Shown here piece after piece: positions 10,104 to 13,880 of a DNA stretch of 64,000 nt (positions are counted from its first letter, which is position 1; every line of letters starts with the position of its first letter). The notes under the pieces are model-generated. The model was not told the DNA's origin. It searched no databases and worked only from the letters and a program-made list of their open reading frames with translations. Source of the stretch: Actinomycetes bacterium (GTDB lineage Bacteria > Actinomycetota > Acidimicrobiia > Acidimicrobiales > Acidimicrobiaceae); NCBI GenBank assembly GCA_021799875.1, contig JAJYZP010000001.1, positions 1-64,000 on the forward strand. The letters run 5' to 3'. The position numbers were made by a program, and so were the translations under genes.

Positions 10104-11075
10104 TCAGGATAGGTTATCACCCTTAAAAATATCGGAGACCGATCCGTCCTCAAAGACTGCAGCGATAGCATCGGCAATGATTTTCGCCACAGAGAGGATC
10201 TCGAGCTTCTCGAAACGCCGATCCTCCGATACCGGCAGCGTATTGGTCACAACGACGCGAGAGATCGCCGAAGCCTTCAGACGATCCACGGCCGGACCCG
10301 AGAGCAAGGGGTGCGTTGCCATAGCCCAGACGTCGGATGCTCCTTTAGAGAAGAGAAGCTCTGCAGCTGCACAGATCGTTCCAGCGGTATCGATCATGTC
10401 ATCGATCAGTACGCAGCGACGACCCTCAACCTCGCCGACGACATCGAGGGCTTCAACCACGTTTGCAGAACCTTTCGGCCGACGCTTATGGACAAATGCG
10501 AGATCGGCATTGAGGTGTTGAGAGTATCGAGATGCGACCTTTACCCGACCGGCGTCAGGAGAGACGATCATCACATCACTCCCTGCGTGCCGGCGGAGGT
10601 AGTCCACGAGCACCGGCATCGCCGTCAGGTGGTCAACAGGACCATCGAAGAATCCCTGAATCTGACCAGAGTGAAGGTCGACCGATACGATACGATCGGC
10701 CCCAGCTGTGGCGAAGAGGTCGGAGACGAGCTTAGCTGTGATGGGTTCTCGTCCAGAGGACTTCCGGTCCTGCCGGGAGTAACCGTAGTAGGGCGAGACC
10801 GCCGTGATGCGATCGGCAGAAGCGCGCTTCGCAGCATCAATCATGATGAGTTGCTCAAATATCGAGTCGTTCACTGGACCCGCATGAGTCTGAAGAATGA
10901 AGACATCTTTTCCACGCACCGAGTCACCAAATCGGCAGTAGATTTCACCATCGGCAAACTCTTTCAGCTCCATGGGACCAAGTCGGACCTGCAGCTTCTC
11001 GGCCACTTCAATCGCGAGCTCCCGATGAGACCTCCCGGCATACAGCTCTAGCCTCCGACGAAGTACTAACTCCAT
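10104..11075 (-). CDS. prs: Ribose-phosphate pyrophosphokinase (PRPP synthetase)
   Basis: Makes PRPP from ribose 5-phosphate and ATP for nucleotide, histidine and tryptophan synthesis. It is 323 residues, class I length. Motifs are FADGEIYCRF near 41, the ATP-loop region SPYYGYSRQDRKSSGREPITAK (about 93), the DLHSGQIQGFF segment (about 133), the flexible-loop KRRPKGSANV (about 197) and the PRPP-binding CVLIDDMIDTAGT (about 220). It starts six bases after the glmU stop. A 132-base gap then separates it from rplY. Confidence 0.97.
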   Translation of the reverse strand: MELVLRRRLELYAGRSHRELAIEVAEKLQVRLGPMELKEFADGEIYCRFGDSVRGKDVFILQTHAGPVNDSIFEQLIMIDAAKRASADRITAVSPYYGYSRQDRKSSGREPITAKLVSDLFATAGADRIVSVDLHSGQIQGFFDGPVDHLTAMPVLVDYLRRHAGSDVMIVSPDAGRVKVASRYSQHLNADLAFVHKRRPKGSANVVEALDVVGEVEGRRCVLIDDMIDTAGTICAAAELLFSKGASDVWAMATHPLLSGPAVDRLKASAISRVVVTNTLPVSEDRRFEKLEILSVAKIIADAIAAVFEDGSVSDIFKGDNLS

Positions 11076-11081
11076 AGCGCA

Positions 11082-12224
11082 CTAATCCACAACAGCAAAC
11101 GGTCCAACTCTCGCTCCAGCCTCTACCTTCGCCCCAGCGCGAAGCTCAACGTACGGACCGACCTTGGCTTCATCGCCAACATAGGCCCGGCTCCCCTCAC
11201 AGCGCACAACTGTGCAACCTACACCGAGGTGACAGTCTACGAGTCGAACCTCAGGACCGATCTCACTATTTGGTCCGACGACGGTCCTGCCCCCTAAGAT
11301 TGTCTGGGGCCACACGGTAGTATCGACTCCAATCTCTACGTCAGCATCGATATAGGTAGACGAGGGGTCTACCAACGTTACTCCTCGCCTCATCCAAGAT
11401 TCATTGATTCGAGATCGCAGAACTGCCTCGGCCTCAGCAAGCTGCAGTCGATCGTTCACACCAGAGACCTCGCGAAAGTCGTCGACCTCGAAGCCACTTA
11501 CCTGATAGCCAGCGGATCGCAAAATGCCGATTACATCGGTGAGGTAGTACTCAGCTTGTGCATTCGCCGGCAGGAGGCGACGGAGCGACGGGCCAAGAAC
11601 CGCTTGATCAAAGACGTAACAAGAGGTATTCACCTCATTGACGAGCAAGACCTCTCCCGAAGCATCACGTTCTTCCACAATACGGTCAATCTCCCCGTGG
11701 CGATCCCGTACGACTCGACCATATCCTTGTGGATTCGGCACGCGCGCGGTCAAGACCGTAGCTGCACTCGATGACGTACGGTGACTCGAAACGAGCTCGC
11801 TCAGCGTAGACGCTCGGAGCAAGGGTGTATCTGCGGGTAGGACGACGAGCGTCTGTGGTTCATCAGACTGAAGTGCGTCTGGCAACCGAGTGAGCGCTAC
11901 ACTCAGCGCATCGCCGGTGCCACGACGGCGAGATTGGGTAGCGAACACTACCTCCACTTCTGGACGTCGAAACTGCGAGAGCACTGCTTGGCGGATGAGG
12001 TTCTCCTGGTGTCCAACGACGACCACGACTCGACTCAAGTTCTCAAGGTCCGTCAGTGAGCTCAAGACATAGTCGATCATGGTCCGACCGCAGAGCTTCG
12101 TGAGCGGCTTCGCCCTCTGAGACCGCATGCGCGTCCCATCTCCCGCCGCCAAGATTGCGACGCTTACTGACCCTCGGTCAGCATCATTACCCTTGGAGAC
12201 AATACGTACGCTCAACGCAGACAC
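11082..12224 (-). CDS. glmU: GlmU-like UDP-GlcNAc pyrophosphorylase, C-terminally shortened
   Basis: The N-terminal uridylyltransferase domain is complete: LAAGDGTRMRSQRAKPL (about 25), VVLPADTPLL with the metal-binding Asp (about 117), YGRVVRD and EVNTSCYVF (about 170-197), and EYYLTDVI. It is followed by a left-handed beta-helix from about residue 280, with hexapeptide turns such as YIDADVEIGVDTTV. The protein stops at residue 380, in the coil that precedes the acetyltransferase active site of standard 450-495-residue GlmU. The catalytic His, the NYDG loop and the C-terminal arm are missing. The stop is real, because prs begins six bases later. From family knowledge, the remaining part should still make UDP-GlcNAc from GlcNAc-1-P. 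The GlcN-1-P acetyltransferase would then have to come from another gene. The start is GTG 12224. Confidence 0.9.
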   Translation of the reverse strand: MSALSVRIVSKGNDADRGSVSVAILAAGDGTRMRSQRAKPLTKLCGRTMIDYVLSSLTDLENLSRVVVVVGHQENLIRQAVLSQFRRPEVEVVFATQSRRRGTGDALSVALTRLPDALQSDEPQTLVVLPADTPLLRASTLSELVSSHRTSSSAATVLTARVPNPQGYGRVVRDRHGEIDRIVEERDASGEVLLVNEVNTSCYVFDQAVLGPSLRRLLPANAQAEYYLTDVIGILRSAGYQVSGFEVDDFREVSGVNDRLQLAEAEAVLRSRINESWMRRGVTLVDPSSTYIDADVEIGVDTTVWPQTILGGRTVVGPNSEIGPEVRLVDCHLGVGCTVVRCEGSRAYVGDEAKVGPYVELRAGAKVEAGARVGPFAVVD

Positions 12225-12317: not shown

Positions 12318-13880
12318 TTACCGCACCTGAAATTGATACGTAGTAACTGAAGCGGATGGTAACGACGTCACCACCGTCGCACCAGATAGCTGCGGCAAGG
12401 ACACCTCACTGAGGTTTAGTGTAGCTGACGTCCGCCAAGCACCGAGAGACCGAACCACATCGTAACCAGGTGGAAAGTCGAGCTGTAACGTCAGAGGACC
12501 GTCGCCGCTTGGACGCTGATTGATCACGACGACGGTCCATATGTGACCACGCCTCACCGCTAGAGCGCGCACAGAACGACTATCGCTTAAGGTCGCGTAG
12601 TTCACCGCACCGGGTCGTATGAATCGAGAAAAGTTCGCCATGACCCAGAAACGCTTGGTGAGATAGAGAGCTTGGTTCCCGTTGCGAGCACCATTGATAT
12701 CAAAATAGAGCAGTCCGTCATTACGTCCGAGATAGTTGAAGTGTCTCCAGCAGTTCGGCTGGATGTCGGTATTGCACCCAAGATCGGGCGAGGCCGCCAA
12801 CCACCACTGGAAAGCGCTATCCCCGCCGATCGCGATATCTTTGTAGATCGTTGACGCAAGCCACAGACCAGAGGAGATAGTCGGGTCGTACTGATATCCA
12901 AAGTGTGCCCCTTGATAGCAACAGATCTCCGTCATCCACGAAGGTCGATGCAGTGTCGCAATATAGCTCCGCATCTCCCTGAGAACCGAAGCGGGAGGGA
13001 AGTCATAGGCGTGATGAGCGACAACACTGAGATAGTGCAGCGCCCCAGGATAGTGAATCCACTTCGGCAGCTGATGCAGCAGCAATGGACCAATTTGAGA
13101 CGACTCGTCGGCAATAATACGACACCACGGTGCGTATCGAGCGAGAGCACGGCCCAACGCAACCACAAGCGGGCCACGAAGTGCAACAGGAACGGCCATC
13201 CCTTCTTGCTTGCACGACGGAAAGGCGTTGGCCGGCTCATTCATCGGCGAGACATAGGAGAGCTTTATGCCAAGATGAGAGCGCAAGCCAGCAACGAGCT
13301 GAGCTAAATAGTCGGCATAGGGAACGATCTCCGATTCCATCAAGCTTCCCGCACACGACTGGTGGTTCGTGGTGAACGCAGGTGGCGCAGAGTTGACGAA
13401 ACCAATCAAGTCTCTCACTCCATAGCGCTGCGCCATGCGAAGGTAGTAGACCCCGGCGGCATCGCGATTCCAATCAAAGCGACCCGGACCAACGTACATG
13501 GTCGCAAGGCGCTTAAATGGTACCTTCACACCGACGCCACCGCCACCGATGTTAAAGCGGAATTGGCTGAGGTCGAGACCGTGAGCCGTGAAGAGAAGCT
13601 CTCCCAGCTTCTTCTGTACATCCGGCTTAAAGCGATACAAGAGTCCTGACCACCATGCGCCAGAGGCACCGAAACCTGCAATCCTCTGTTCCTTGCGAAG
13701 TCCTACCTCCAACGAAACAGAGCCTCCAACGCGCGGGACGAAAACGGCCGTGGTGGCACGTGGGTTCTGCACACCAAGGTCCACTACCGAGATTGCTGTA
13801 GCAAAAGCGCTGCTCAAGATGGCTACTGCGAGCAGAAGCGGCCAGAACTTCGCTGCAAGCCGAGATGTCACACCAGACAA
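12318..13880 (-). CDS. Secreted GH30-family glycoside hydrolase
   Basis: A 520-residue exported enzyme of glycoside hydrolase family 30 (glucosylceramidase / endo-beta-1,6-glycanase group). An N-terminal hydrophobic segment (about 12-33) predicts a signal peptide or anchor. The TIM barrel begins with GFGASGAWW (about 68) and includes FRFNIGGGG (about 107). The predicted acid/base is Glu215 in SPMNEPAN and the nucleophile is about Glu318 in WMTEICCYQG. A C-terminal beta-sandwich (from about 420) is typical of GH30. Substrate is uncertain: beta-1,6-galactan, beta-1,6-glucan and xylan are all possible. The start is TTG 13880 or an internal GTG nine bases on. It stands alone on its strand, with glmU 93 bases downstream. 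Confidence 0.82.
   Translation of the reverse strand: MSGVTSRLAAKFWPLLLAVAILSSAFATAISVVDLGVQNPRATTAVFVPRVGGSVSLEVGLRKEQRIAGFGASGAWWSGLLYRFKPDVQKKLGELLFTAHGLDLSQFRFNIGGGGVGVKVPFKRLATMYVGPGRFDWNRDAAGVYYLRMAQRYGVRDLIGFVNSAPPAFTTNHQSCAGSLMESEIVPYADYLAQLVAGLRSHLGIKLSYVSPMNEPANAFPSCKQEGMAVPVALRGPLVVALGRALARYAPWCRIIADESSQIGPLLLHQLPKWIHYPGALHYLSVVAHHAYDFPPASVLREMRSYIATLHRPSWMTEICCYQGAHFGYQYDPTISSGLWLASTIYKDIAIGGDSAFQWWLAASPDLGCNTDIQPNCWRHFNYLGRNDGLLYFDINGARNGNQALYLTKRFWVMANFSRFIRPGAVNYATLSDSRSVRALAVRRGHIWTVVVINQRPSGDGPLTLQLDFPPGYDVVRSLGAWRTSATLNLSEVSLPQLSGATVVTSLPSASVTTYQFQVR

Follow-up and report, generated by a model that had tools for sequence, protein, structure and literature searches.

The glmU gene in the window, by which we mean the whole 64,000-nucleotide stretch of DNA that was analysed, almost certainly codes for an enzyme that is a uridylyltransferase only, and its sequence and those of its relatives indicate that the acetyltransferase half was lost in an ancestor of the order Acidimicrobiales. 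GlmU, with which nearly all bacteria carry out two steps on the way to their cell wall, the first of them by the acetyltransferase half, is described as a bifunctional enzyme characteristic of UDP-GlcNAc synthesis in bacteria and as a drug target that eukaryotes lack.

The glmU open reading frame (11082-12224, minus strand) encodes 380 residues. Its uridylyltransferase (nucleotidyltransferase) domain, delineated by a profile match, an alignment and a structural model with its PDB match, spans approximately residues 20 to 262 (11439-12167, minus strand) and contains the motifs ILAAGDGTRM, the Lys of AKPLTK, RGTGDA, LPADTPLL, NPQGYGR, IVEER, EVNTS and GVNDR. All the signature residues lined up with those of full-length proteins in an alignment of 17 GlmUs, in agreement with the preliminary description of this DNA, which had judged the domain complete. 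It is followed by a truncated left-handed beta-helix (approximately residues 263 to 380; 11085-11438, minus strand), with VGPYVELRAGAKVEAGARVGPFAVVD as its last coil. Profile, alignment and model all place the end of the helix at residue 380, in the coil that precedes the acetyltransferase site, as had been noted from the sequence alone; in full-length GlmUs the aligned coil is the one that GNFVE(M/I)K follows. Neither the catalytic His motif nor the NYDG loop, both already reported as missing, was present in the protein in the alignment or in the comparison with the NCBIfam model TIGR01173. Residues 21 to 377 of the protein match positions 2 to 345 of the 452 of this model, the protein ending there. 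The score against that model, 332.1 bits, is below the curated cut-off of 366.85. Just upstream of glmU, a secreted-looking protein (12318-13880, minus strand) has a likeness to GH30-type glycoside hydrolases, as judged by eye from its translation only.

An AlphaFold model of the protein, built using the 17 aligned GlmU sequences, had a mean pLDDT of 93.7. Its best PDB match was the GlmU of Mycobacterium tuberculosis, with a TM score of 0.91 by the length of the model and 0.69 by that of the full-length target. The window protein shares with bifunctional GlmUs (TIGR01173; M. tuberculosis, Escherichia coli) the uridylyltransferase domain and the first beta-helix coils, as well as the glmU-prs gene order, but it lacks the C-terminal coils that bear the GlcN-1-P acetyltransferase site and falls under the curated cut-off. 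The model also matched the truncated E. coli GlmU structures 1fwy and 1fxj, which we take to be laboratory constructs and which similarly consist of the uridylyltransferase domain and a beta-helix stub; in contrast with these, the truncation in the window is natural and order-wide, and its stub is longer. The ST0452-like archaeal sugar-1-phosphate nucleotidylyltransferase/acetyltransferases (TIGR03992) also combine a nucleotidyltransferase with a beta-helix, but the match of the window protein to that model (111.6 bits against a cut-off of 292.1) is far weaker than to the GlmU model.

At its 3′ end, glmU reads VGPFAVVD followed by the TAG stop codon (11082-11084, minus strand), then by the six bases tgcgct and the ATG of prs, which codes for ribose-phosphate diphosphokinase (10104-11075, minus strand). 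In 57 genomes of the order, from 32 families, we read GlmU through to its stop codon. In all 57 the protein stops within the same coil or immediately beyond it, with a short variable tail after it, and neither the catalytic His motif nor the NYDG loop was found in any of them. In many of these genomes prs lies directly downstream, the glmU-prs order being kept. These data uphold the view that neither a 3′ exon nor a simple frameshift is hidden after the glmU stop, and they show that the short end is not a matter of chance. They also bear on a sequencing or assembly error at the glmU-prs junction, which had been named as a possible refutation. The genome is a draft of 189 contigs with an estimated completeness of 92.6%, and such an error might be suspected on those grounds; nevertheless, GlmU ends at this point in dozens of genomes that were assembled independently of one another, among them single-contig ones (G006, G043, G047 and G186), often with prs directly downstream, and an error is therefore excluded for practical purposes. 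Thus the preliminary description was right about the short GlmU, but it missed that this is a fixed ancestral trait of the order and not a feature of a single genome. Full-length GlmUs were considered in some members of the order and rejected, as the long open frames proved to be upstream extensions.

Outside the order, the picture is different. In other orders of the same class, three genomes (G094, G121 and G132) encode GlmUs of 456 to 468 residues with both acetyltransferase motifs, and their full-length glmU genes are closely followed by an apparent prs. In an even sample of the phylum, comprising 139 genomes (9 from the order and 130 from other actinobacteria), the GlmU matches of the order stop near profile positions 344 to 362, whereas most others reach positions 435 to 452. 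The exception is a genome of the order, G195, whose GlmU frame breaks earlier. As all the GlmUs read in the order are short and those of other orders of the class are full-length, a single ancestral loss is the simplest reading: the acetyltransferase half probably disappeared a single time, early in the history of the order, and the short form then became fixed.

GlmU was also found shortened elsewhere among actinobacteria. In family f46, which belongs to another class, three genomes (loci L247, L248 and L249 in G097, G123 and G197) have a GlmU cut at almost the same coil. This truncation is apparently independent, the genomes do not have the order's GNAT described below, and full-length GlmUs occur in other members of that family. 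A 406-residue GlmU (L250, in G119) has a shortened and degenerate C-terminal half.

Conversely, we found no clear GlmU locus in five members of the order (G067, G071, G073, G074 and G075), and in a sixth, G068 (L352/L278), GlmU is decayed, with 326 residues and without the LAAGxGTRM motif. Several of these six genomes are 96 to 98% complete. With a recognisable GlmU missing or decayed, another pyrophosphorylase must serve there. A UDPGP/UAP1-type pyrophosphorylase (PF01704) was absent from the window's genome, and G047 was the only positive among the 79 genomes of the order that were searched. A full eukaryotic pathway with a UDPGP-type pyrophosphorylase was rejected, since PF01704 occurs in G047 only and not in the window's genome.

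It might be asked whether the short GlmU acetylates GlcN-1-P by a different site, or whether acetylation takes place later, for instance at UDP-GlcN. The conservation of the beta-helix stub across the order, rather than its complete deletion, can be cited in favor of this. We nonetheless regard it as very unlikely, as none of the 57 proteins has the catalytic His, the NYDG loop or the coils with the remainder of the site, and a stub can be retained for folding or assembly. Moreover, E. coli GlmU cut at approximately residue 331 retains uridylyltransferase activity only.

A separate acetylation route is thus required, as the preliminary description had anticipated. It had proposed to look for a GNAT or a beta-helix acetyltransferase near glmM and glmS. 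Both genes are present and adjacent, in an rplM-rpsI-glmM-glmS run, and no acetyltransferase was seen around this run. The search for hexapeptide (beta-helix) proteins in the window's genome yielded the serine acetyltransferase CysE, DapD, a gamma-carbonic anhydrase-like protein and sugar-nucleotide pyrophosphorylases, and none of them is a stand-alone GlcN-1-P acetyltransferase corresponding to the C-terminal half of GlmU. The best candidate for the replacement lies elsewhere in the genome. It is a GNAT protein of 142 residues (G000:C8:15370-15798, on contig C8, outside the window) that matches the GNAT family model PF00583 above the cut-off.

The acetyltransferase scans used two family models, GNAT PF00583 and hexapeptide PF00132, in a few genomes, and GNATs were compared in four genomes of the order and then in two more. 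In these six genomes, the widespread groups were PAT/ArsN1-like proteins (6/6), mycothiol synthase (6/6), a two-domain GNAT (5/6) and RimI (5/6). The candidate, of about 142 residues, was found in four of the six and was missing from both genomes of genus g5. Among the most widespread GNATs of the six genomes, only the candidate has an E-D-V motif. We consider it unlikely that another of these GNATs performs the acetylation, the contenders being the PAT/ArsN1-like protein (G000:C182:307) and the RimI-like two-domain GNAT (G000:C26:1293 group). The former is found in all six genomes, including those of genus g5 where the favored candidate is missing, and the latter in five. Nevertheless, the family of the PAT-like protein is widespread and has small amino acids and their analogues as substrates. 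This protein has relatives on 1475 plasmid records; E-D-V is missing from it, and it has a His where GNA1 has its catalytic Tyr. The two-domain GNAT does not have E-D-V either and is missing from G075, a genome that is 98% complete.

The active-site pattern of the candidate resembles that of eukaryotic GNA1, the GlcN-6-phosphate N-acetyltransferase (EC 2.3.1.4). In an alignment of 18 sequences from the order, the invariant residues of the candidate include Q-L-S, E78-D79-V80, R116, R119, Y126 and R140. In Caenorhabditis elegans GNA1 (CeGNA1), the binding site for the sugar hydroxyls is formed by Glu104 and Asp105, that for the acetyl group by Asp105 and Val106, and that for the 6-phosphate by Lys136 and Arg164, and Tyr149 stabilizes the thiolate (PMC3413214). 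A profile-profile alignment placed E78-D79-V80 of the candidate on E104-D105-V106 of CeGNA1 and Y126 on Tyr149; the GNA1 sequences for this comparison came from PDB alignments, the human one being identical to 2huz letter for letter. The candidate differs in having no conserved Lys at the position of the phosphate-binding Lys136 and no conservation of the GNA1 Cys141. Its loop is longer and has two invariant Arg residues nearby, R116 and R119, and the invariant R140 of its last strand is two residues off Arg164. It is also bacterial, with only about 17 to 20% identity to the eukaryotic enzymes. The family profile of the candidate matched GNA1 structures of Trypanosoma brucei, C. elegans, Arabidopsis and human, although the best PDB match of the candidate was 1z4e, a protein of unknown function and not a GNA1, with T. 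brucei GNA1 (3fb3) third. Apicomplexan GNA1 is an instance of a GNAT that was recruited independently to acetylate GlcN-6-P and whose binding residues differ (PMC7587441). That enzyme is from another lineage and its activity is proven, while the role of our candidate is proposed on the basis of sequence.

The candidate is single-copy in 75 of the 79 genomes of the order, small genomes included. In the phylum sample, it was found at E ≤ 5e-55 in all 9 genomes of the order and in 1 of the 130 others (G180). At E ≤ 1e-15, 4 of the 130 were positive, three of them with weak relatives near 1e-16. A Fisher test on this distribution gave p = 2e-13, a value that should not be taken to measure functional linkage, as there is one clade and one event. 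The correlation between the GNAT and the short GlmU represents a single evolutionary event, so any core gene specific to the order would show it. The candidate is kept in five of the genomes whose GlmU is undetected or decayed (G067, G068, G073, G074 and G075). The two genomes of genus g5 (L350 in G004 and L351 in G011, 92% and 85% complete, respectively) have a short GlmU and no orthologue of the candidate.

Relatives of the candidate with 50 to 56% identity are lone accessory genes on plasmids of Streptomyces, Actinomyces and Curtobacterium, and those inspected in Streptomyces and Actinomyces lie away from hexosamine genes. Single accessory relatives were also seen in plasmid records L378 to L381, from Streptomyces, Actinomyces oris and Phyllobacterium. 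In a tree of the candidate, support was mostly weak, and the accessory copies may nest among the sequences of the order. The neighbors of the candidate (NUDIX, PAC2 and citrate synthase, identified by eye) gave no hint of hexosamine metabolism. Because the relatives are lone plasmid genes and genus g5 has no orthologue, the candidate may alternatively be a GNAT for detoxification that became fixed in the order. Genus g5, with neither a full GlmU nor the favored GNAT, also speaks for a wholly unrecognized acetyltransferase, of another fold or undetected by the PF00583 and PF00132 models, as does the scanning of only two acetyltransferase families in few genomes. We find such an enzyme rather improbable, since the favored GNAT fits both the distribution and the active-site pattern without it.

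That GlmU is a uridylyltransferase only makes a eukaryote-like order of reactions for UDP-GlcNAc probable, and we lean slightly towards a pathway that combines this short enzyme with a stand-alone GNAT. GlmS would produce GlcN-6-P, the candidate GNAT would acetylate it to GlcNAc-6-P, GlmM would isomerize the latter to GlcNAc-1-P, and the short GlmU would add UMP to yield UDP-GlcNAc. In a possible variant of this scheme, the same GNAT would act after GlmM, on GlcN-1-P. We give an even chance to the proposal that a separate GNAT supplies the acetylation, the candidate acting on GlcN-6-P before GlmM being the most likely form of it. More tentatively, and at slightly less than even chance, the acetyltransferase of GlmU may have been replaced throughout the order by a GNA1-like GlcN-6-P acetyltransferase that was recruited independently, such that acetylation would precede isomerization and GlmM would act on GlcNAc-6-P.

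We found no published description of an order-wide GlmU truncation in the open literature searched, outside which most subscription papers fall. The automatic annotation of these glmU genes as bifunctional would be mistaken throughout the order. An order without the acetyltransferase half of GlmU shows that the two activities of this enzyme can be uncoupled in nature. It supplies a naturally occurring enzyme with the uridylyltransferase half only and, in the GNAT, a concrete candidate for the acetylation of GlcN-6-P in bacteria. If the proposed route is true, UDP-GlcNAc for peptidoglycan would be made in a bacterial order by the eukaryotic order of reactions.
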